Source: Desmodesmus armatus (Eukaryota; Chlorophyta; Chlorophyceae; Sphaeropleales; Scenedesmaceae). Taken from it: 64,000 bases of DNA. Position numbers and translations under genes: made by a program. Location: contig VIIQ02000116.1 of NCBI GenBank assembly GCA_007449985.2, positions 1-64,000 on the forward strand, read 5' to 3'. Under the pieces are notes generated by a model, which searched no databases, was not told the origin of the DNA, and saw only the letters and a list, made by a program, of their open reading frames with translations. Shown one piece after another: positions 185 to 15,770 of the stretch (the stretch's first letter is position 1; every line of letters begins with the position of its first letter).

Positions 185-3100
185 ATGCCAAGACAGCGAC
201 AGCCATTGCAGGCTAGGCCCTATGGGGCACCTGGTCCTGCGGTTCCCGGCCCTCGTGGCCCTGTGCCCCCTCCTGCCCCCCCCGGTCCTACTGATTCAAC
301 CCACAGGTCACAAGGAGCTGCTGACCTGGCCAACCAAAAAGCAAAGAAGATGGCATCAGAGATATGTCGCAGCATTAAGATGGATGGGCAGACAGAAGGC
401 ACTGTGCCTCCCCAAGCAGTCCTTACCTGCCTCGCAGGGCACTTGGCTGGGCAACCCAGCCTAGTCAGCCTTGGCCAGGAAATGGCCACCCAGGTGGAGT
501 CGGTTATGAAGGACATCCAGCGCAAATATCAGCCCAGTCTTCGGCTTGGCAGCAACAGCCGCAATACAGTGCTGAACATGTCCAGCATGCCCACCAGGGG
601 CCTGACAACACCACCTTCTGAGAGGGTCCGCAGCCTGCTTCAAGCCAGCCGCCCACGCCCCATAGCCACGCCTCGTGTCTCGACCTGCAGAGTAGTAGCA
701 GAATTGAATGGTAGGCCTCTGGAAGGAGTAGTGGACACTGGGGCTAGTACCACTGCTGTGACCCTTGACTGCCTGCGACGTCTGGAGCTTGACAGCCTGA
801 TAGTGCCTGCTCAGTCCAGCTACCTGAATGCGGATGGCCGCATCACTGCTGGAAAGGGCAAGGTACCCAACCTAGCTCTGGCTTTGGGGGACTTTGAGAC
901 TCTTATCAACCCCACAGTCACCTCCGCCTTGAATTATGACCTCTTGATCGGCAACGATGTGCTGACCCGTGCCCACGCGGTGATCGACTATGGAAAGGGT
1001 AGCTTGATCCTGCGCATAGACCCCACCACCTGCCAAGAGCTACCCATTAGCACTAACCACCCCTCTGAGCCTGGCAGTATCTACTGCCAGAGCCAGCCTC
1101 ACCTGCCAGAGGACCACAGCTTCGACACTGCATCCACAGACGAAGCTGAGTATGTGACTGAAAGCTTCTACTTGGAATTGGCTGGCACCAGCACCACAGC
1201 TGCTGACCCAACCATTGCAACCGAGTACGATGATAGTATGCGCTCCTTTACAGCTGCTAGCAATGCAGCCACCTACGGCAGCAGCAGGCAAGCAGCAGAC
1301 AGCAACAACACCACACCAGCAGGAGAGGTTATCGAGAGTGGTGGCGGCTATAACAGTGATTTTGACAGCTACATGCTCAGCAGCGACAGTGATGATTTCA
1401 GCGATGAGGATATGGAAACAGAAGACAGCGAGCTGGTTCACCCCAAGAACCTGAGGTATGTGCTTTCTGTCCTGCAAGATGCTTACCCCGACTGCGATGG
1501 CCCCACAGCACAGCTGCTGGCCTCCCTTGACGCAACCGCTTGGGGCTTCCCTGACTCCCTGGGGTTTGACATTGAGAGGGAGGGATACAATGCCAGTGAT
1601 GGGAAGGGAGCTACTCATGAGGAGATTTCAGGGTCAGCCGACACCGACTCAGGCACCACCATATACCCAGCCATCTGCAATATGGCACAAAAATCACCAA
1701 AAGAATGGGTACCCACCCAACTGCGCCGCCTGAGGGATGGACAGCTGAGGGGTGAGCCTTCATTGTTCTCCAACCTACAGCTGCCCCCTAATGCTCCTGG
1801 CCATGAAAATAGTAGCACCGAGGGCCTGGCTTCATGCCTAGCCCTGCAAAAGCAATTTGCCTCCCTGATGCTAGCAAACCACATGGGAATCACCCCTGAG
1901 AAAGCTATGGAAATAGCTGGTAAAGACTTAGCGGGTCTGCCCCAAGGCTACCCTTCTGTGTTTGAGGCTTTGCATAATGACTGGCTGTACTCCGATTCTG
2001 ACGAGATAGACACAACTTTAACAGACACCACAGCCGCCAGCATGCTGTGCCTGGATCAGCAGCTACCAACTACACCCAAAACACCCCCTCACAGCTCAGA
2101 GTGGGGTTACAAAAAGCTAGTCAGCCATCTGGCCCTTCTCTCCACCTCAGCCTTTCCAGGCCTGAGGAGTGACACAGCCCAGTTCCTAGCAGAGCTTGAT
2201 GTTATCAACTTACCTGCGGGATATGATTCAGCGCTGGGATCTTGGGCTGAGGAAGAGATGGGCTTGTCTAGGGCTCCCCTACTCCTGGTGGATGACAACC
2301 ACACAGCAACAGACAGCAGCGAGTCAGAACCAGAGCTTATTTACATGTATGACGAGCCAGAGGCAGGGGATAGCATTGATTCCCACAGCCTGCTGACTGA
2401 TAACCCCCGCATGCTCAGCTACCTGGCCGGGCTGATGCTAGCAGCGTTTGGGGATGACATGGAGCCTGTCACAGCCCTGAAGCTGGCTAGCACAGACCTA
2501 GTGGCTTTGCCTAGTGGTATGCCTTCCGCCCTTGATGCCTGGATCACCGCCTCCTTGGGAGCTACAGTCCCTTCCAGTGCCAAGAGTCTTTTCAGCCTTG
2601 ACAGAGCGCTGGCTGAGCCTGAACACTATGAGATCAGCGAGCCAAACCAGCCCAACACTCGCCACAGGCTACTTCAGCGCGTGGCATGGCTGATTGAGTG
2701 TGCTTACCCACATTATGACCGTGATGAGGCCGAACGCATAGCCAGCTTGGACCTGAGTGCAGTACCTCAGGGGTGGCCCTCACTCTTGGCCCCGCCGCCA
2801 ACCAAAGATTTGACCACCCCACTGGCCACTCCAGCATCGGCACCTGCAACAACAGTAGACCCATCAGAGATGTTTGTGTTTGAAGAGCGACAAGGAACTC
2901 CCCCGACACACCCGACCAACAGCAGCAGCGCCCCTGCAGAGCTATCCCAAAGCAATCCAGGCCCCAATCGGCGCCAGCTGCCTACAAGAGGAGCTCTACA
3001 ACGCAGCGACTCAGGCGTAACACACGTCTTCACTTCTGGCCGCCCTGGCCGCTACACAGTGGTGACTTCTGGAGACCAGCACCCCCGGCCCCCCAGGCCC

Positions 3101-6100
3101 CGCAACCCAGCAAACCCTTCCGGCCATCGTATTAACAACCCCCCGCAGCGGCCCCCTGTGCGCCGCCGCCAACAGGCAACCCTTCTCCAGCCCACAGAAG
3201 ACACCGTCATGATTGAAGCAACACCCGCTGCACCTGAGGTCTTCTGCTCTGAGACCATTGCAGCGAGTGACCTCACCCCGCTAGAAAAGAGGGCTGAAAG
3301 CACAGCCTCCTCCTCCAATACAACCCCTACGACTCCAGCTCCAAGCCCAGCTGTGTATGAGACCACCGACATGGAAGCTTCCCCCGTGGACACCTTCTGC
3401 TACTTTGAAGAGCCCTTGTCTGACAGCGACATGCCCTCCCTGGCAAGCGACTCCGACAGCGATACATCCGAGCCAGACCAAGACCCCGACACCCTGCACC
3501 CACTAGATTGGCTGGGAATGTATGAGCCCCTACCCCAGGAACACCCAGAATTCCCCGAGCCAGCCGCCCTCCCCAGAGCCCTCTACAACCCACCAGAAGC
3601 CGAACTCTGCCCATTTCCTGATGATGACCTCCTCAGTGACAACAGGCACCTCTCTCTGTCTGGTATGGTAGACGCCGCCAACCTGGACACAGCAGAGTTT
3701 GACATGATCGTGAGTGTGTTGGAGCAGAATGCAGACGTTTTCTGCTTCCACCCAACTCAGTTGGGCACCTGCAACTATGGGAGCCTCTCCATTGACACCG
3801 GAGATGCAAAACCCCTAAAGCAAAACTACTACAGGATGCCATATAAAAAACAAGAAGAGCTGAAGAAGCATGTAGAGCAATGGCTGGAACTGGGCATCAT
3901 AGAACCCAGCAACTCCCCTTGGTCAGCCCCCTTGCACCTAGTACCCAAGAAGGGAGGTGCCACCCGTGCAGTGGTGGATTATCGAAAGCTCAACAGCGTC
4001 ACCAAGAAGGACGCCTACCCCTTACCTCTGATGAATGATATCTTGTACAACATAGGGCCTGCCAGGTATTTCAGTGTAATTGATTTACACTCGGGGTACC
4101 TGCAAGTGCCCATGGCAGGCAAGGATGGTAAGGATCCGCACAACAGCATTGAGAAGACAGCGTTTGCGTGCCCCTTCGGGCACCGCTTGTACCAGTTCCT
4201 GAAGGCTCCCTTTGGCTTGACAGGTTGCCCATCTTTCTTCATGCGCCTGATGAATCAGGTGTTACAAGAGCATGTCGGCAACTATGCGTTTGTGTACCTA
4301 GATGATGTGGTGATCTACAGCCGCACTCTTGATGAGCATGTTGCTCACCTGACTGCTGTGTTTAAGTCGCTACGTGCTGCCAACCTGCGGCTGTCCAGCA
4401 CCAAGTGCCGCTTTGCCACCAGCCACTGCACCTTCTTAGGCTTCTGCATTTCAGAGAAGGGCCTAGGCTGTGACCCCCGGCTGATAGAAGCAGTTGCACT
4501 GCGCCAAGAGCCTTACAAATCAAAAAGCAACCCCAAAAAGGCAGTAGCCAGCTTTGTTGGCCTATGTTCATTCTATAGGCGTTTCATCAGAGGCTTTGCA
4601 GAAATTGCAGAGCCCCTCACCCGTATCATGGGCAAAACAAAGAAGTTTGAGTGGGGTCCTGAGCAACAGGATGCCTTCGACACCCTCAAGAGCAAGCTGA
4701 TGGACTATCCTATCCTACGACGTCCCGACTTCACCAAGCCGTTTCACGTCCACACCGATGCCTCCCAGAAGGCAGTGGGCGCTGTGCTGACCCAGTGCGA
4801 CGAGGACGGCAAGCACTACGCCGTCGCCTACCACAGCAAGAAGCTTACTTCTACACAAGCCAACTGGGCAATCACCCACCTGGAATGTTATGCAGTTGTC
4901 AGCGCCGTCACAGAGCAGTGGAGGGACTTCCTGTGGGCTGCTGAGCACCCCTTCACTGTAGTGGTTGACCACCACGCCCTCCGTTGGCTGCTGACATCAC
5001 CCAACCTGCAAGGCAAGTTAGCCAGGTGGAGCCTGAGGCTACAGGAGTTTATGCCCTTTACGATCCAGTATCGTAAGGGTATCCACCACCTGGCTGCAGA
5101 TGCCCTCTCCCGAGACCCGCGACATGACAGCGACGAAAGCCCTGAGACACCTACCAGCGCCACCAAGGCCCCAGCCCTTGATGACTGTCCCGATTCTGAC
5201 CCTACTGACTACAACCACTTCGATGAGGTGCTGACCCTCGACTCCACCAGCACCCCATGCCACCCCGACACAGCAACCGCTGCCTTTGAGGACCCGGCCA
5301 ACAGCCCAACCCCCTCCTTTGGTGAGTGGTTGCCCCCAGAACCCCCTGAGTTCAAGACCGACACCCACGACCGCAACCTGGAGCAGTTTCTCACCTCTGA
5401 AGACAAGACCGACACCTACCCAGCCACGCCTGCGGGCAACAACGACCACGCCAATCCATTGGACTCCACAGAGCAAGGGCATTCTGAGACCCCGCCACTT
5501 GACCACGAGGAAGCCCCTCCTGTGGAGCACGACTCCACCCTCCCACTGAGCCTTGATTCACCCAGCAGAATGGCAGGCCTCCCTGGCCCTGCGCGTATCG
5601 CCATTGAAGGCAACATTGGCAGCGGCAAGAGCACAGTGCTCAGAAAACTACAGGAGATACAAGCACTACCCTGGTGGAGCAACTGGCATATACTACCAGA
5701 GCCTGTAGCCGACTGGCAACACCTTCTGGACCAGCACTACACGTCTGGCGATACAGACCCTGCCCATGCAGCAGTATTGCAGCAGGCAGTGCTCAATGCA
5801 TATGCCCTACGCGTTCCACACCCCATAGCGGCTCCCTACATCATCATGGAACGGAGTCCCTGGAGCAGCTTGGCAGTGTTCCTGCCTGTGCAAGGCCTCC
5901 CTGCTAGCTATGAAAGGGTGGTTCAACAGACTGCGCATCATATGCACCCAGTCCTGGACAACGCCCTGCCAACAACCCTTATCTACCTACAAACCGACCC
6001 AGAGACCTGTCTTACCAGAGCCCAAGCTCGCCAGCGCCCGGAGGAAGCCGCCCTAACCTTGGACTACTTGAAGAAGCTCCACCGCCAGTATGATACAGCA

Positions 6101-7153
6101 GTCCACCGGTTCCCTGGAGTGACAGTAACAATCAACGCCAACCAAGACGAGGACACGGTGTTTGCAGCCGTCAAACGTGCTGTGGAACTACTACATGAGG
6201 CCTTTGAACTACCCAACAGCCACAACAACTACTACAGCCTGTGGTCAACTACCAAGGCTCCCTACACTATTGCTGAGTTTCCCAATCTGGCGCGACTACT
6301 TGGACCTGACAAGCTACTTACTACTTGCGACCCCTACTTATTGCGACTGTGCCCCGATCAGCTACTGGTATGCACAGAAGGAGTGCCCCCAAGCCATGCA
6401 AGCAGCTCAGGCAACCGCCTGTTACTACACAATGCCCCACCCCAAGAATACCAACCCAGGGAGCCCTCACCCCCGTCCCCGCTGGACCTGACACCATTGG
6501 ACTTCCTGAGTGGACCTTCACACCTGCTGTTCCATCAGGACAGCGAGGTCCCCATACTCTTCCAAGGAGGCCCGGGCACCTTTGCCTACTCACCACTGTT
6601 CCAAGCACAATACGAGCACCGCTTTGGCTCCCCAGTGAGCACCAGTCACCGCATCAACAATCTTCACGCCTTGGACTTGTATGCAGCCTTGGGGCCATGG
6701 CTCTCCAGCGCGCCCGGTGCCAACGTTCTGCTGGCGGTGGCGCCCAAGAAAGCCCTACCAGCCCTGCAAGTACAGCAGGTGAACACAGACGGCACCGAAG
6801 TTGTGTATGTGGACACAGAGCAGTATGCTACCTTCAAGGCAGCAGAGATGGAAGCACAGGACCCGGTCAGGTTCAACCAGACCCTACTAAAAAGCGACAC
6901 TACCTTTCCCTGGACCCAAGCCTTCACCAATGAGGCCTACATGTTGGACAGCTGGATTAGACTGGTCAGACTACGCCCTACCATACCCTGTGGCGTCAGC
7001 CTGCACAACCCCAACACCATGACTTTGGAGCATGGCTCAGTCCTACCAATGGGGCCTGAGCACAACACCCGACCGGAGCCAGCTCTCAGACTGGCCAGCT
7101 GCCTACCACACCAAGAGAAGAGCTCCCACCCCGGGATTCCCCAGAGCAGATGA
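185..7153 (+). CDS. Retrotransposon polyprotein: protease, five-repeat region, RT, RNase H, deoxynucleoside kinase
   Basis: A 2,322-residue polyprotein. Retropepsin: DTGAS at residues 184-188 and a LLIGND motif near 253. Residues about 422-868 hold five copies of a helical repeat separated by Asp/Ser/Glu-rich linkers. Reverse transcriptase covers about 1195-1400, with IDLHSGY near 1299 and the YLDD active site at 1371-1374. RNase H follows, with acidic residues at D1525, E1567, a VVDHHALRW segment near 1595 and an Asp in the DALSRD segment near 1639. After an acidic linker comes a deoxynucleoside kinase domain (about 1800-2010): P-loop IEGNIGSGKST (E1808, K1815), EPVADW at 1839, ERS at 1889, and an Arg-rich lid RAQARQRPEE from R1945 followed by YLKKLHRQYD. 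Residues about 2010-2322 are not recognised. The start is the first ATG after an in-frame TAG; translation could begin upstream by readthrough. The protein is presumably cut by its own protease. There is no integrase in this ORF; that lies in the next one, which overlaps by ATGA. Confidence 0.9.
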   Translation: MPRQRQPLQARPYGAPGPAVPGPRGPVPPPAPPGPTDSTHRSQGAADLANQKAKKMASEICRSIKMDGQTEGTVPPQAVLTCLAGHLAGQPSLVSLGQEMATQVESVMKDIQRKYQPSLRLGSNSRNTVLNMSSMPTRGLTTPPSERVRSLLQASRPRPIATPRVSTCRVVAELNGRPLEGVVDTGASTTAVTLDCLRRLELDSLIVPAQSSYLNADGRITAGKGKVPNLALALGDFETLINPTVTSALNYDLLIGNDVLTRAHAVIDYGKGSLILRIDPTTCQELPISTNHPSEPGSIYCQSQPHLPEDHSFDTASTDEAEYVTESFYLELAGTSTTAADPTIATEYDDSMRSFTAASNAATYGSSRQAADSNNTTPAGEVIESGGGYNSDFDSYMLSSDSDDFSDEDMETEDSELVHPKNLRYVLSVLQDAYPDCDGPTAQLLASLDATAWGFPDSLGFDIEREGYNASDGKGATHEEISGSADTDSGTTIYPAICNMAQKSPKEWVPTQLRRLRDGQLRGEPSLFSNLQLPPNAPGHENSSTEGLASCLALQKQFASLMLANHMGITPEKAMEIAGKDLAGLPQGYPSVFEALHNDWLYSDSDEIDTTLTDTTAASMLCLDQQLPTTPKTPPHSSEWGYKKLVSHLALLSTSAFPGLRSDTAQFLAELDVINLPAGYDSALGSWAEEEMGLSRAPLLLVDDNHTATDSSESEPELIYMYDEPEAGDSIDSHSLLTDNPRMLSYLAGLMLAAFGDDMEPVTALKLASTDLVALPSGMPSALDAWITASLGATVPSSAKSLFSLDRALAEPEHYEISEPNQPNTRHRLLQRVAWLIECAYPHYDRDEAERIASLDLSAVPQGWPSLLAPPPTKDLTTPLATPASAPATTVDPSEMFVFEERQGTPPTHPTNSSSAPAELSQSNPGPNRRQLPTRGALQRSDSGVTHVFTSGRPGRYTVVTSGDQHPRPPRPRNPANPSGHRINNPPQRPPVRRRQQATLLQPTEDTVMIEATPAAPEVFCSETIAASDLTPLEKRAESTASSSNTTPTTPAPSPAVYETTDMEASPVDTFCYFEEPLSDSDMPSLASDSDSDTSEPDQDPDTLHPLDWLGMYEPLPQEHPEFPEPAALPRALYNPPEAELCPFPDDDLLSDNRHLSLSGMVDAANLDTAEFDMIVSVLEQNADVFCFHPTQLGTCNYGSLSIDTGDAKPLKQNYYRMPYKKQEELKKHVEQWLELGIIEPSNSPWSAPLHLVPKKGGATRAVVDYRKLNSVTKKDAYPLPLMNDILYNIGPARYFSVIDLHSGYLQVPMAGKDGKDPHNSIEKTAFACPFGHRLYQFLKAPFGLTGCPSFFMRLMNQVLQEHVGNYAFVYLDDVVIYSRTLDEHVAHLTAVFKSLRAANLRLSSTKCRFATSHCTFLGFCISEKGLGCDPRLIEAVALRQEPYKSKSNPKKAVASFVGLCSFYRRFIRGFAEIAEPLTRIMGKTKKFEWGPEQQDAFDTLKSKLMDYPILRRPDFTKPFHVHTDASQKAVGAVLTQCDEDGKHYAVAYHSKKLTSTQANWAITHLECYAVVSAVTEQWRDFLWAAEHPFTVVVDHHALRWLLTSPNLQGKLARWSLRLQEFMPFTIQYRKGIHHLAADALSRDPRHDSDESPETPTSATKAPALDDCPDSDPTDYNHFDEVLTLDSTSTPCHPDTATAAFEDPANSPTPSFGEWLPPEPPEFKTDTHDRNLEQFLTSEDKTDTYPATPAGNNDHANPLDSTEQGHSETPPLDHEEAPPVEHDSTLPLSLDSPSRMAGLPGPARIAIEGNIGSGKSTVLRKLQEIQALPWWSNWHILPEPVADWQHLLDQHYTSGDTDPAHAAVLQQAVLNAYALRVPHPIAAPYIIMERSPWSSLAVFLPVQGLPASYERVVQQTAHHMHPVLDNALPTTLIYLQTDPETCLTRAQARQRPEEAALTLDYLKKLHRQYDTAVHRFPGVTVTINANQDEDTVFAAVKRAVELLHEAFELPNSHNNYYSLWSTTKAPYTIAEFPNLARLLGPDKLLTTCDPYLLRLCPDQLLVCTEGVPPSHASSSGNRLLLHNAPPQEYQPREPSPPSPLDLTPLDFLSGPSHLLFHQDSEVPILFQGGPGTFAYSPLFQAQYEHRFGSPVSTSHRINNLHALDLYAALGPWLSSAPGANVLLAVAPKKALPALQVQQVNTDGTEVVYVDTEQYATFKAAEMEAQDPVRFNQTLLKSDTTFPWTQAFTNEAYMLDSWIRLVRLRPTIPCGVSLHNPNTMTLEHGSVLPMGPEHNTRPEPALRLASCLPHQEKSSHPGIPQSR

Positions 7154-9147
7154 ATATGTATGATCGGCCCCCGCGAAGAACGGCCAAGCTGGCAGTGGAA
7201 AACATGCAGAACTGGGCAACTACAGAAGCCCAAGCAGTTACCAGCGACACAAAAATACCCTCCGACCTACCCTGCAGCGTCTGTGGGTCACCCCACGACT
7301 GGGTCAACCTGCTACTATGCCACCGATGTGATAAGGGGTGTCACACTTACTGCGTGGGCCTGGTGGGAGTACCATCGGGCAATTGGTACTGCGATGAGTG
7401 TGTGTTACAAGGAGCGCCTGATACCCTGCCCCTACCCACTGGAAGTGGCATGTCAGACCTGCAGCCCTCAAGCGCTACTGACAAACACCAGGAGTCACCA
7501 GCAGCCAGCCAGCCCCAGGGCAAGGCCCCAAGCCGCTTTCATGATTCCCCAAGCCTAACCCAGAACACCCCCGACCCACCTGAAGAAGCCGACACTGAAT
7601 CAGACCAAGACGAAGCAGCCTCTGTCACAGGCGCCATCTTGGAGGTATGGGAGGATCAAGCCACGATGCAGTACCTGCAAACAGAGCAGTACAACGTGGA
7701 TCTTCTGCCAGACGACGATGTATTACTTAGCAGGGAAATGAAGCGTATTGACAAGAGAGCCGCCAACTACCGCTGGTGCAACGACAACCACAAGCTGTAC
7801 TTCCGCCCCTCGGGCAAGTACACAACCGACCGAGAAGTACCCTCCCCTGCAGCAAGAGAGACCCTGATCGACCAAATGCATCTGGACCTGGGACACCTCG
7901 GCACCACCAAACTGTGCAGCATCCTGCTTTCCCGTTACTACTGGCGTGGCATCTACAATCAAGTCAAGCAACGCCTACGCAACTGTGTGGACTGCCTCCG
8001 CCACAAGACCCTGTTCAAGTTCCAACCAGAGCTCAAGCCTCTGCCCCCCAGCCAGTTGTGGGAAAGGGTCAGTCTTGATTCAATGGGCCCCTACCCACCC
8101 ACCCGCAACGGCTGCCGATTCCTGTGTGTTGGCATCGATGGCATGAGCAAGTATGTGGAGGCGCAAGCAGTCCCTAAGCTGGATGCCGATACTATGTGCC
8201 GCTTTGTTATGAACCAAATCATCGCCAACCACGGCACACCAAAAACCATCATCAGTGATGGAGGCAAAGAATTTCAATTTGGTTTCAAGACCCTCATGAA
8301 GGAACTTGGCGTAGAGCACCTACAAACAGCCGCCTACAATCCGCAGTCCAATGGACAAGCAGAAGCAGCAGTCAAGACCATTCTCCATGGCCTGCAGAAG
8401 ACAGTGGGAGACAACCCCCACGCTTGGGATGAAAAACTACCTTTGGTACTGCTAGGACTTCGAAGTGCGGTGCATTCTACTACTGGGTTCTCTCCCTTCT
8501 ACGTCAACACTGGCAGGAATCCTATCCTACCTGCACAACGCCGCGGCCCTCCAGCCCCAACTACTGACCAAGCTGGGCCTTCCAGTAGGCCACGCACTCG
8601 CCGCACCATCCCAGCAACAGCAGCCACAGCAGCGGCTGGGACATCGGCACAATCCCCAACTACTGACCAAGCTGGGCCTTCCAGTAGGCCACGCACTCGC
8701 CGCACCACCCCAGCAACAGCAGCCACAGCAGCGGCTGGGACATCGGCACAATCCCCACCTGCAGCAACAGACGAGGAAGAGGAAGATGATGGGCTGGATC
8801 AAATGCTGGACCAAGGCACCAGGCGACTTATCAAGCAACGCAACGCTCACAAGACTGACCTGCACCAAACACTGGAGAACAACATACTACGTTCACAAGC
8901 CAAACAAAAGAGGGACTTCAAGGCACGCCACCTGCACGTGCCTGCACCAGAAGATGCTATGCCACCTGGCAGTCTGGTGCTGATGTTCTGCCCTCCCAAA
9001 AACAAGCTGGCCAAGGTCAATGCTATCGAGGGACCCTACCTACTGGTGAAGTATCTCAGCAACTCCAGGGCACTCCTTGAGGATGCCCAGCACAAGCAGT
9101 GGGCTTGTGCAATCAACAGGCTAGCACCCTTTGGGTCATCGGACTGA
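7150..9147 (+). CDS. Retrotransposon PHD finger plus DDE integrase
   Basis: A 665-residue protein whose ATG shares bases with the TGA of the upstream polyprotein (ATGA at 7150-7153). The frame is also open back to 7060, so a -1 frameshift is an alternative to reinitiation. PHD finger at residues 42-84 with the Cys4-His-Cys3 pattern: C42, C45, C57, C60, H65, C68, C81, C84. Integrase zinc-binding module: H244, H249, C279, C282. Catalytic core: D310 (SLDSMGPY), D370 (IISDGGKEF) and E405 (SNGQAEA), spaced about as in DD35E enzymes. A Thr/Ala/Pro-rich spacer with a 33-residue tandem duplication follows, then a C-terminal stretch with GPYLLVKY, like the GPY/F module of gypsy integrases. PHD fingers in known proteins bind histone H3 tails; a role in choosing integration sites is inference. 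Confidence 0.9.
   Translation: MNMYDRPPRRTAKLAVENMQNWATTEAQAVTSDTKIPSDLPCSVCGSPHDWVNLLLCHRCDKGCHTYCVGLVGVPSGNWYCDECVLQGAPDTLPLPTGSGMSDLQPSSATDKHQESPAASQPQGKAPSRFHDSPSLTQNTPDPPEEADTESDQDEAASVTGAILEVWEDQATMQYLQTEQYNVDLLPDDDVLLSREMKRIDKRAANYRWCNDNHKLYFRPSGKYTTDREVPSPAARETLIDQMHLDLGHLGTTKLCSILLSRYYWRGIYNQVKQRLRNCVDCLRHKTLFKFQPELKPLPPSQLWERVSLDSMGPYPPTRNGCRFLCVGIDGMSKYVEAQAVPKLDADTMCRFVMNQIIANHGTPKTIISDGGKEFQFGFKTLMKELGVEHLQTAAYNPQSNGQAEAAVKTILHGLQKTVGDNPHAWDEKLPLVLLGLRSAVHSTTGFSPFYVNTGRNPILPAQRRGPPAPTTDQAGPSSRPRTRRTIPATAATAAAGTSAQSPTTDQAGPSSRPRTRRTTPATAATAAAGTSAQSPPAATDEEEEDDGLDQMLDQGTRRLIKQRNAHKTDLHQTLENNILRSQAKQKRDFKARHLHVPAPEDAMPPGSLVLMFCPPKNKLAKVNAIEGPYLLVKYLSNSRALLEDAQHKQWACAINRLAPFGSSD
8555..8752 (+). 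repeat. 99-bp tandem duplication inside integrase ORF
   Basis: Two nearly identical 99-bp units (second begins at 8654) encode two 33-residue copies rich in Thr, Ala, Arg and Pro, sitting between the integrase core and the GPY/F-like tail. The length is a multiple of three, so the frame is kept. It probably forms a flexible linker. Confidence 0.9.
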
Positions 9148-9700
9148 CTGGAAAGGGCTTGATCTTGGAAATAACGAGTTCTGGAACTTGTTTGCGTATA
9201 CTGGTACCCACAGAGGACCCTAGTGGTATGTGATCTAAAGACTGCTGTCCCACGACAGCAGCAACATGTGAAGAGACAACCCTACGCGCCTAAGCATGTT
9301 GAGAGTTTGGGTTTTGGAGATATGAGATATATCACCAGCATTGAAGTGGACGATCGTGGGCCATTGACCTGCTGATATTGACCCGCTGTTATAACAAGTA
9401 GCGCACATTTCGCAGGTGTTGCGCATTGCCACAGCACTGCGCTGTGTTCTTTCCCGCACAAGTTTTCTTTCAGTTGACTGTTGTTTGCATAACGCCCCAG
9501 TCTCCGCAACGCAGTGCAGCCAGTCGTACTCCGCCTCCGCACACGACATGGCCTTCCTGCATGGGCAGGCAGAGTGGGCAACCATGCAGCAGAAGGCTGC
9601 ACAGGGACCCGGCCACGCCTAGGCCGGTGTAGCTGCCAGGAGGCAGCTTTCTTGGTTGGATGGTGCGTGTCACTGGTGACAGTACCAGGTCAGAGGGCAG

Positions 9701-9982
9701 AGGTCCAGGCATGGTGTGGAAGCTGTCGACTGCAACATGCAGTACAGCTAGGAAGCGGCGTTGGGTGGTGCGCATATTGGTGCATGTTGGTGCAGGACTG
9801 AGGAATTTGTTAGGTTAGACAGTTGCCTAACCAGGTGATTGTCCTGCAGTTCTGACCTGCACTTGTGGCTGCAATAGTGTGGAGCAAGTGCTGCTTCGCA
9901 GCTTGTGACTGCGTGACAATATTGGGTGAGAGGTTCAGGCATGGTGTGGAAGCTGTCGACTGCAATATGCAGTACAGCTAGG
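9701..9982 (+). repeat. Pair of 52-bp direct repeats in the element's 3' noncoding part
   Basis: The segment at 9701-9752 recurs at 9931-9982 with only two visible differences. The copies are 230 bp apart and lie between the integrase stop and the polypurine tract. Function unknown. Confidence 0.85.
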
Positions 9983-10032
9983 GGGCGACCTTGTTTCTCC
10001 CCCTTTGGTTTTCAAACTTACAAAAAACAAAC

Positions 10033-10049
10033 AAAAAAAGAGGGGGAAG
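10033..10049 (+). promoter_or_regulatory. Polypurine tract, plus-strand primer for reverse transcription
   Basis: Seventeen consecutive purines (seven A, then GAGGGGGAAG) lie downstream of the last ORF, where LTR retrotransposons keep the RNase-H-resistant primer. A pyrimidine-rich stretch at about 9989-10010 is partly complementary and could fold back on it. The 3' LTR should begin within a few bases of 10050. Confidence 0.65.
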
Positions 10050-10919
10050 TAAAGGCTTCCAGTGTTGTTTGTCTTAATAGCAGGACTGACCACTCACTGT
10101 TGGCACTGTTGGCTACTGATGGGGTTTGCCAGAAGACTGACACTGACGGTTACTCTTGGGTTTTGGCGGGAAAATTGTGGTGTGCCACCTGCCCGACTGG
10201 CTTCAGACTTGTATCATATGCAGCAGCGTTACAGCGGGCAGTGTGCTTGATTGTGCAGGGTTTTACCTTGTCAACCTTGTACAACAACAAAAAAAAATAT
10301 ACTGGACTGGCCACCCTTGAAAAGAGAAGGGGCAGTGATGCCACACCTTTGCTGATGAGTTGTTGAATAGTCCGCACCTTTTTGCATATTGCGCTGTTGC
10401 ATCAGTTTGATCAGCCTTGAACAGTGTGCTGCAGCGGGCACGAACTTATAGCCCCGGGGTCGGGCCTCCTTACAGCAGGGACGGCCACAGCTGTTGCCTT
10501 AGGGCGAGTGCAGCTGTGTGTACGGAGTGAACGGCAGCAGACGTGCTACCATGTCTCCCTTGTTCAGGCCTATGCTTGGGCTGGACTGCCCTCCCTTTTG
10601 GCATATGGCCTGGGGGCAGGCCTCGTTGAAGCATTAGCAGCCACAGCTGTTGCGTGAAGGCGAGTGTGTGGATGGATAAGGAGTGAGTACCTACAGGGTG
10701 AGTCCTGAGTATCTTATGGAGAATGGGACCTGTTGTTTATTATGCTGAGCAGTGTTTTGCACAAGTTGGGTTTAGGGTGCAGCTGCAACATGTGCTGCTA
10801 CCTACTATGTGTGTTGTTGGGCATGGCAGTTGCAACACTTGCTGCCTATCCTTGAGCAGTGTTCGAATGGTCCTTGGCTGACTGCGATTCTGGAGCAGTC
10901 GCCTGACTGGGGAGGTGTG

Positions 10920-11253
10920 TCTGACAGCCTTCTCCTTTGATTTAGGCTCACGGCCTGGACACTGAGCAGGTGTCATTTGTGTCTTGAAGTTGCGTGAGCG
11001 TCCAGCACAGACGGTGCTAGTATGTGTTTTGTGTCAGCTTAGCTTCTGTGGGATAACTTCCTGCAGAAGCTGACGGAGCTACTCACAGGTCTGACAGCTT
11101 TCCGTTTGCTTTGGGCTTACAGCCTGGACACTGACAAGCTGTTTCTTGTGTAGTGGGGCTGCAGTACAGCGCAGCTCAGGTGGTACTCCCACCCATTTGC
11201 ATGTTGTAGCAAGTCAGCTTCTTGTTGGATAGCTTCCTGCAGGAGCTGACAGC
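10920..11253 (+). repeat. Two diverged about 165-bp modules in the putative U3
   Basis: Copy A (about 10920-11080) and copy B (about 11090-11253) both start with CTGACAGC, share a GCCTGGACACTGA core, and end in an imperfect hairpin built on AGCTTCT...GGAAGCT-like arms around TTCCTGCAG. A second, weaker pair sharing CCACAGCTGTTGC lies at about 10480-10530 and 10640-10690. Such repeats often act as enhancer units in LTRs; that role is inferred. Confidence 0.6.
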
Positions 11254-11582
11254 AACCACGCATCGTGTGTGTATGTCTGACAGCAGCCGGTCTCGTACTG
11301 CTCAGTACGTGTACTGGCTGGACCTGGCCCAGACCTGACGCCTGTATGTACCTGTGTTATGTTGTGATGTTTGATCGGCACAGTCACTTGCGTATGCATC
11401 TTCGTGCCAGCGCATCGCAGCTTCGGGTGTGCAAGTGTCTATGCATCCTGTACAGCTTTGCCCAGTCACACCACATCGTGTGGTTTGATTGGTTTTGCAG
11501 TGCATGTTGCACTGGTTGAGGTACGCTGTTGTTGCTGCTACAGTTAGCAGCAAAGTAACAGAAGAGTGACCTCGGCCAGGGG

Positions 11583-11590
11583 TATAAATA
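11583..11590 (+). promoter_or_regulatory. TATA box of the putative LTR promoter
   Basis: TATAAATA is preceded by a GC-rich stretch and followed by about 300 bp without ORFs. It sits near the right end of the putative LTR, as expected for the U3/R boundary, with a predicted start of transcription near 11610. Confidence 0.5.
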
Positions 11591-11984
11591 GCGAGTGTGC
11601 GCTGGGTGACATTGTTGAGTTACACCCACAGCCGTGAACCAGCCCCTCGCCTGCTAAGCGTTGTAACAAGCTCTTTGGCAATCCTTCTGTGACTTTCCAG
11701 ACACCGATTCGGCTTCCCTGTCTTGAGCAGCTAAAAGCTGCAGCAATTGGTTTCTTCAGGCTTCTTCTACTGCTAGGTGAAGTGCCCAGAGCACTCGAGT
11801 TCCCTGTCGACAGATACAGTTACCCCAGGTCCCTGCGACCCTTCAGTCTGATCAGCTGAGAGGTGCCATCCCTCAGCCCTTACTAAAAGTGATACCTATA
11901 CACCCTCGTCTCGCTTCCGGCTACCCTGTAACGGCGTGGGAAACAGGCCGTGTGTGTGAGAGGGAGGGGCAGTTGTGAACCCCG

Positions 11985-12638
11985 GTGCCAGCAGGGTTCA
12001 GTGAGAGGGGCCCGGCCTGCCACCAGGGCGGCACTGGGACGGTCTGTGTGCCCCCTTTTCCCCTCTGCCACAGCAGGTACCCCCTTCGACCCCTGGCACC
12101 CGCGGTGCACTACCACCACCCCAACCACCGGCTTCGACCCCCCGTACTGCCACACGGGCTGGTGCTCAAGGACCTCCCACAGGGCAAGCAGAGACTGGGA
12201 ATCCACGAATACATCAGGCGGGAAATCGCTGGGGAGCTCGTCGGAACATCCACTGAGATCTTCGGCACCAGTGACATGTTCTTCATCGCCGACCCCTTCC
12301 CCTGGATGAGTGAGGAGCGCTTCGGCTACCTGCTCGCCAGCACCATCACCAACCCTGAGCCCTTCAGCATGGAGGCCTACGCCGCCTGGTGTGCCACCCT
12401 GATCCTCAAGTTCAAGCTGGCCTTCCTGGAGACCCTGCCCACCACCATCCCCAAGACCATCCTGAAGCCCATTGTCTCCCTCAAGGCCTTCCACCACCCC
12501 TGCAGCAATGGCAGCGGCAACGGCATCAACCGCATCTTCACAGCTGTGGGTGGCGGTGAGGAGGGCAGGCGGCAGGTGGTGCGCTGCTGGAACCCTGTTC
12601 GCAACGCTGCAACAGGGGACGACGAGCTCATGTGCTGA
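11985..12638 (+). CDS. Orphan ORF after the LTR; possible gag fragment
   Basis: A 217-codon ORF beginning roughly 80 bp after the estimated LTR end. The first 50 or so residues are Pro/His-rich. The rest looks globular, with an amphipathic helical stretch around FSMEAYAAWCATLILKFKL and a following Thr/Pro/Lys segment. I recognise no family. Because gag normally begins just downstream of a 5' LTR, this could be the start of gag from a second, mostly lost copy sharing this LTR, but that is inference. It could also be a host gene fragment or chance ORF. The ATG at 11985 is simply the first in frame. Confidence 0.35.
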   Translation: MPAGFSERGPACHQGGTGTVCVPPFPLCHSRYPLRPLAPAVHYHHPNHRLRPPVLPHGLVLKDLPQGKQRLGIHEYIRREIAGELVGTSTEIFGTSDMFFIADPFPWMSEERFGYLLASTITNPEPFSMEAYAAWCATLILKFKLAFLETLPTTIPKTILKPIVSLKAFHHPCSNGSGNGINRIFTAVGGGEEGRRQVVRCWNPVRNAATGDDELMC

Positions 12639-15217: not shown

Positions 15218-15770
15218 AGGGTAGCGTTTTTTTGAAGCTGATACACCCTGTTCGTCTGACGGGGGGGAGCGAGGAGCGGAAATGCGTTTTGCAGCAGCAC
15301 AGGGGGGGGTAGCAAGTAGCTGCTCTGCCGGAAACGGTGCTAGAGGGGGGGTGAGCGAGGAGCAGTTTGGCTGGGGTCCAGGGGGGGGGGAGCAAGGTGA
15401 CAAGGTGGTGTACCAGGGCATTGTTGATGGCACATCCATTGCTGGCCAGCCTACCTGCAAGTAGGGGCAATTGCCCAAGGACACCGCCAAGAGCCCAGAC
15501 AGATGCTGCACCTTCAACTGTAGGTAGCGAGAATTGTCCTCCCTGGACAACGCTGACACAATGCCAGGGTCTGGCTGTTCACCGAAGCGTTTCAAGATAC
15601 TGGTGTGCCCTTGACGGGGGGGGGGGAGGGGCGGGTTCCGTGCCAAGCCCAAGGGGCTACCTCCCAGGGAGCAAAACGACATGAACATAGGAGCTAAGCT
15701 CCCCCGGGGGAGCGGAAAATTTTCTGAGACAAACGAACAGGGTGTATCAGCTTCAAAAAAACGCTACCCT
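15218..15770. mobile_element. 553-bp element with perfect 38-bp terminal inverted repeats
   Basis: The 38 bases at 15218-15255 (starting AGGGTAGCGTTTTTTT) are the exact reverse complement of 15733-15770. The interior is G-rich on the plus strand, with several runs of seven to nine G, and contains no transposase. Size and structure fit a non-autonomous DNA transposon (MITE-like) or a foldback element. I see no clear target-site duplication: the flanks are CTCTC on the left and CAAGA on the right. A minus-strand ORF (15068-15688) crosses it but shows no motif. Confidence 0.6.

Follow-up and report, generated by a model that had tools for sequence, protein, structure and literature searches.

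The window analysed here, the first 64 kb (64,000 nucleotides) of contig C112 in the 115.8-Mb assembly of the chlorophyte Desmodesmus armatus, opens inside a long terminal repeat (LTR) retrotransposon whose polyprotein carries a deoxynucleoside kinase (dNK) domain. Because the contig starts at window position 1, the upstream part of the element (5′ LTR and gag) is cut off; the following features of the element lie in the window:

185..7153, + strand: open reading frame 1 (ORF1), 2322 aa, a protease–reverse transcriptase–RNase H–dNK–orphan domain polyprotein, frame open
665..1009, + strand: aspartic protease (PF13975, DTGA)
3815..4504, + strand: reverse transcriptase (PF00078, YLDD)
4625..5134, + strand: RNase H (PF17917/PF17919)
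5135..5584, + strand: linker from RNase H to kinase
5585..6184, + strand: deoxynucleoside kinase domain (PF01712; AF2 model, pLDDT 92.7, dCK/dNK fold)
6185..7150, + strand: conserved orphan region 3′ of the kinase (confident model core, residues 111–263)
7150..9147, + strand: ORF2, 665 aa, overlapping ORF1 by 4 nt
7240..7434, + strand: PHD finger (PF00628), in ORF2
7750..8589, + strand: integrase (H2C2 zinc finger and rve core), in ORF2
10648..12148, + strand: 3′ LTR, about 1.5 kb, matching both LTRs of a copy on contig C616

The order of protease (PR), reverse transcriptase (RT), RNase H and integrase (IN) is that of Ty3/gypsy LTR retrotransposons. The Pfam models for RT and RNase H and the domain order fit gypsy, in an analysis whose RT tree is without named copia, BEL or retrovirus references.

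A preliminary description of this DNA had proposed that dNK motifs follow RNase H, in order, within the open frame at 185–7153, and this is confirmed. The profile search that it called for returns PF01712 at 96.2 bits (cut-off 27; E = 2.8e-27) over profile positions 1–185 of 203, and solved dCK, dGK and insect dNK structures are matched at a best E of 7.8e-14 by sequence and 1.8e-53 with a profile. The motifs comprise the P-loop region (from 5606), EPVADW (5699–5716), LQQAVLNAY (5777–5803), ERSPWSS (5849–5869) and RAQARQRPEE (6017–6046), and the AF2 model adopts the expected dCK/dNK fold. By profile, motifs and predicted fold, the domain is thus confirmed as a member of the dNK family PF01712. 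For the location first given, 5580..6220, the domain bounds are now set at 5585–6184; the "Gln-rich helix" was overstated, since it amounts to a single conserved Gln (Q66 in domain numbering) and a second Gln adjoining it.

Motif conservation extends across the 17 element kinases compared. The P-loop pattern GxxxxGK[ST] is present in 17/17, as are the Glu of EPV (EP[VL] in 16, EQV in L015) and the ER of ERS (ERS in 15, ERG in P0026 and P0050). The Trp of the EPV-W motif is kept in 16/17 (Lys in P0005), and so is the lid RxxxRxRxxE, with P0033 departing from the domain ahead of the lid. Among 15 elements, 37 residues are invariant where at least 13 of the 15 rows are filled, including G9–G12, G14, K15, E39, Q66, E89, R90, S95 and E154. 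The Glu of the EPV motif is the catalytic general base in the dNK family. These observations bear on the idea that Pol uses the domain for structure or regulation, in dimerisation or folding, and that its catalysis is dispensable. The fold is reusable in this way: NDUFA10, a complex I subunit, is a dNK-fold protein that no longer needs catalysis, and it appears as a sequence relative in the profile search. A purely structural domain, however, need not keep its active site, and here the P-loop residues, the catalytic Glu, the Glu-Arg of ERS, the Gln and the lid Glu are all invariant where covered in the 15 elements, so we consider such a role quite unlikely.

The domain recurs in other copies of the element. 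A protein search of the genome finds 23 kinase rows on 18 contigs, 15 of which also hold the RT of this lineage; three (C85, C714 and C715) show no match to the window RT in the stretches examined. Among the RT candidates scored (96 of 222), all 15 contigs with an RT of this lineage show an RNase H match followed by a dNK match. Twelve of these 15 loci make up one nearly identical family; those on C403, C548 and C141 have diverged (54–62% identity in dNK). The kinase lies in one stop-free piece on 11/15 contigs (exceptions C633, C677, C548 and C141), and RT–RNase H, a query twice as long, is unbroken in 9/15. Two copies (C100 and C139) have a kinase shorter by 12 nt with the frame kept. The other scored RT rows reach at most 43% identity, and the PF01712 genome search (18 rows) places no kinase on their contigs. 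Apart from the elements, this search brings up one more gene, the dNK of the host, which lies on C561 and appears, by reading, to have several exons. At E 1e-4, tblastn finds no match for the linker at 5135..5584 in L015, L016 or L018, the diverged families.

Related polyproteins in databases show the same fusion. The kinase search yields 11 proteins of polyprotein length, all with RT and/or RNase H in the same ORF (precomputed Pfam). The RT search, with 7979 candidates scored, finds PF01712 in 12 of the best 120 of 2473 hits, namely all 11 whose identity to the window RT is 51% or more, plus P0034 (48%). It adds P0036 and P0050, bringing to 13 the polyproteins in which PF01712 is fused with RT and/or RNase H. 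An assembly or gene-calling artefact that fused a retrotransposon with a kinase of viral or host origin could be suspected from some copies with broken frames at the ends of contigs, as on C677, where the kinase reaches 71–76% identity with stops and PR and RT match at 100%. Yet dNK comes after RNase H on 15 contigs, and 13 database proteins carry the fusion in a single ORF, which makes this extremely improbable. One source names P0006, P0027–P0030, P0032, P0036 and P0050 "thymidylate kinase" or "deoxyadenosine/deoxycytidine kinase"; all are retroelement polyproteins except P0006, a 223-aa kinase ORF. The RT–kinase fusion explains such "thymidylate kinase" entries.

Phylogenies place the kinase in a single lineage of elements. 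In the RT–RNase H tree (a selection of 36 among 125 matching rows, midpoint root), all 15 kinase rows belong to a single 20-member clade supported at 100/100. Five members of this clade have no visible kinase. P0040 and P0060 end at RNase H, and P0041 and P0042 continue for just 83 and 121 residues; the gap between RNase H and kinase is 60–179 residues in 14 kinase elements, and these four ORFs may end too early to show one. The fifth, P0043, extends 487 residues past RNase H without a kinase, and its close sister P0034 has one. In the kinase tree, 17 element kinases form one clade (100/99; 100% of 200 bootstrap trees), and the host C561 gene groups apart from it with dCK (98/83), the comparison with host and viral kinases that had been suggested. 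This tree has 55 rows, taking in 6/6 viral loci, 12 of at least 80 bacterial loci, 17/17 free-standing database kinases (P0007–P0023) and three eukaryotic sequences, and no phage records or chlorovirus dNK. The element clade sits on a stem of 1.6 and deep branches are long; the branches next to it are long and weakly supported (a program warning), and for these reasons the tree does not resolve the source of the kinase. Viral contigs gave no match when scanned with the window kinase alone and six distant kinases with alignment A1, the genome-contig scan gave the bacterial loci (at least 80), and phage records gave 30 distant matches. Pairwise identities of kinase and RT–RNase H across 15 elements are strongly correlated (Mantel r = 0.844; 0/9999 permutations as high). 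Because the element kinases form one clade, we prefer a single gain, and these sequence comparisons suggest that the kinase was most likely captured once and long ago and then inherited with the element; transfer of the kinase between elements is possible.

The kinase also resembles RT in how it has been constrained. Among six pairs drawn from the four families in the genome, the ratio of nonsynonymous to synonymous differences per site (pN/pS) is 0.26–0.44 for dNK; it is 0.26–0.56 for RT, 0.20–0.36 for RNase H and 0.23–0.44 for PR (six pairs each), and 0.37–0.49 for the orphan region and 0.39–0.54 for IN (three pairs each). The longest matched stretch was used where a frame is broken, and with synonymous sites saturated these raw values overstate dN/dS. 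At the sequence level, then, the kinase is under constraint like that of RT and is not decaying beside a conserved RT; the preliminary description had suggested selection. The three outcomes that it named as refuting it (no dNK match or fold, absence of the domain from the other copies, and such decay) are all contradicted, which supports its interpretation.

Three loci without a match to the window RT, L019, L020 and L021 (on C85, C714 and C715), show a different state, with a gag–PR frame running on into a decayed kinase remnant. L021 has no RT match in 9.9 kb; in the stretches examined there is none in the other two either, where L019 reaches an N gap and L020 a contig end, so that an RT may lie beyond. 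The pattern GxxxxGK[ST] is absent from the frame of the remnant in all three, and in L019 DPA replaces EPV and EHN replaces ERS. L020 equals L021 over the stretches compared, and PF03732 (gag) is found in L019 and L021 at or just above its cut-off. These loci may be non-autonomous elements related to the kinase lineage. As a measure of neutral decay they proved uninformative: between L019 and L021, pN/pS is 0.55 for gag and kinase remnant alike. The remnants do indicate that the kinase can be lost, as would be expected were it recently captured passenger DNA without function. Against this stand its retention in elements down to 49% RT–RNase H identity to the window, its grouping within one RT clade and a pN/pS well below 1, and we regard passenger DNA as very improbable.

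The predicted substrate pocket offers a suggestion about what the enzyme uses. V69, Y73 and S95 lie at the positions of dCK A100, R104 and D133, and in 17/17 rows these sites hold Val, an aromatic residue (Tyr or Phe) and Ser, respectively. The A100 and R104 equivalences are anchored at Q66 of alignment A1 and follow a helix that is unbroken in the model; in the MAFFT alignment the Gln helix is displaced in the outgroups, and A1 has a gap after residue 72, so that Y73 is placed by inference. Arg104 and Asp133 help dCK to read the base. According to PMC3851323, changing R104 and D133 lets dCK accept thymidine and deoxyuridine, and PMC3426553 describes a triple change, A100V/R104M/D133A; crystal entries of such dCK variants among the structural matches contain L-dT. 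Since the Arg/Asp pair of dCK is missing from the modelled pocket, pyrimidine use is predicted, and the pocket suggests that the element kinase accepts pyrimidines including thymidine.

We interpret these elements as a Ty3/gypsy-type lineage whose Pol captured a dCK/dGK/TK2/insect-dNK-type kinase, probably to supply deoxynucleoside monophosphates (dNMPs) for cDNA synthesis. The in-frame position, predicted fold, catalytic motifs, single kinase clade, RT-like constraint and divergence in step with RT carry this reading, and with it a role in deoxynucleoside triphosphate (dNTP) supply for reverse transcription is plausible. The kinase would be translated within Gag-Pol, on one polypeptide with RT, and would be located in or beside the particle, where it could convert deoxynucleosides to dNMPs near RT; host kinases would take these on to dNTPs, and cDNA synthesis would be kept from stalling where dNTPs are scarce. 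According to PMC9331428, non-dividing animal cells contain too few dNTPs for unhindered reverse transcription, their supply being held low by a host restriction factor, and low dNTPs slow retroviral cDNA synthesis. A stronger version, in which a self-provisioning clade packages the kinase with RT and channels dNMPs (including thymidylate) to cDNA independently of host S-phase dNTPs, is one that we advance only tentatively. The same sequence evidence would fit an active but host-directed kinase that raises the cell-wide dNTP pool or counters a dNTP-depleting host measure and has no special place in the particle: if freed by the protease it would act cell-wide, and a dNK gene is known from chloroviruses and other viruses of algae related to them (PMC4602308). 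The in-frame Pol position kept across the lineage suggests delivery with RT, however, and we think a host-directed role unlikely.

Several observations weigh against a kinase captured by Pol to serve cDNA synthesis. Synonymous sites are saturated in 6/6 dNK pairs, so no dN/dS value is possible. The kinase lies below RT–RNase H in mean identity (0.564 vs 0.625) and above it in just 10/105 pairs. If every label is accepted, the RT tree needs a minimum of three label changes, read as three gains because a single gain would require four losses; the number falls to two without P0040, P0041, P0042 and P0060, and to one without P0043 as well. The host genome has its own dNK (C561), which weakens the case for a need on the part of the element, and the three loci with gag–PR and no RT match keep merely a decayed kinase remnant.

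Further features of the element and window were noted. The copy on C616 spans 207546 to 192571 with both LTRs present (1.5 kb each); these are 99.67% identical over 1501 columns, pointing to a recent insertion. AAGAG, a candidate target-site duplication, flanks this copy on both sides if the 3′ LTR ends at GCCAC, bases that the 5′ LTR copy is without: 3′ LTR copies (C616 L041/L042; window 12148) run on with GCCACA and the 5′ LTR copy with TGGCAG. A gag-like frame in the C616 copy was read by eye only, and in its leader (L042/L012) that frame is not the one in which PR is read. The orphan region at 6185–7150 has 39 invariant columns among five sequences and matches in the diverged families L015, L016 and L018 at 34–60% identity, with no Pfam match and no clear PDB match. 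The PHD finger lies N-terminal to the integrase zinc finger, occurs also in several related database polyproteins, and is possibly a chromatin reader for target choice; among the literature matches listed, no algal case of a PHD finger with a Gypsy integrase was recognised. The end of ORF2 holds a 99-nt tandem duplication (33 codons; 8555–8752; 99% identical), and the approximately 1.5 kb from ORF2 to the 3′ LTR (9147–10648) has no ORF of 150 aa and a 65-nt repeat at 9699 and 9929. A 41-nt inverted repeat (15218–15258 and 15730–15770; 98% complementary, spacing 471 nt) is perhaps a small DNA transposon. G+C is 53–63% along the window; the assembly has 49 matches to PF00504 (light-harvesting protein genes) and the plant-type telomere repeat TTTAGGG, features that fit a photosynthetic eukaryote such as a green alga, and a search of it for the Chlamydomonas-type telomere pattern found none.

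The preliminary description knew of no LTR element with a dNK, and we likewise found none among the matches listed from the literature on retroelement kinases, dUTPases and accessory domains, a scope with most subscription papers and all of Repbase outside it, so that a named consensus for such an element may exist. The word "kinase" is absent from four main texts on accessory domains (PMC6338049, PMC9289625, PMC6431247 and PMC5408684). As far as these searches reach, the element would, if our reading is true, be the first retroelement known with its own nucleoside salvage enzyme. A kinase-bearing lineage would show the retroelement side of a contest over dNTPs far from animals, make dNTP limitation of retroelements in algae testable, and provide a natural RT–kinase fusion for study.

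dUTPase removes dUTP and has a fold other than that of dNK; the enzyme here is, unlike it, a kinase expected to make dNMPs. LTR elements and retroviruses with dUTPase are nonetheless the nearest precedent, since they too place a nucleotide-metabolism enzyme in an LTR-element polyprotein: PMC5408684 and PMC6431247 describe it in the bdelloid rotifer elements Juno, Vesta and TelKA, planarian Burro, fungal elements and certain retroviruses. There dUTPase sits between PR and RT in the rotifer and planarian elements and varies in place in retroviruses, whereas the kinase here follows RNase H. Elements with a captured chromodomain, DnaQ-like exonuclease or orchid m6A demethylase (PMC6338049 and PMC9289625) likewise have an accessory domain fixed in an LTR lineage, and none of those named is a kinase. 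With the dCK/dGK/TK2/insect dNK family the element kinase has in common its sequence, predicted fold, P-loop, EPV-W, ERS and lid; it differs in its place within a polyprotein, its distinct long-stem clade, its ER[SG]xWSS motif and the aromatic side chain that stands where dCK has R104. The chloroviruses and their relatives among algal DNA viruses, as described in PMC4602308, are likewise genetic parasites of algae with a dNK, but their kinases, which lie outside our kinase tree, are genes of large DNA viruses, whereas the element kinase is inside Pol.
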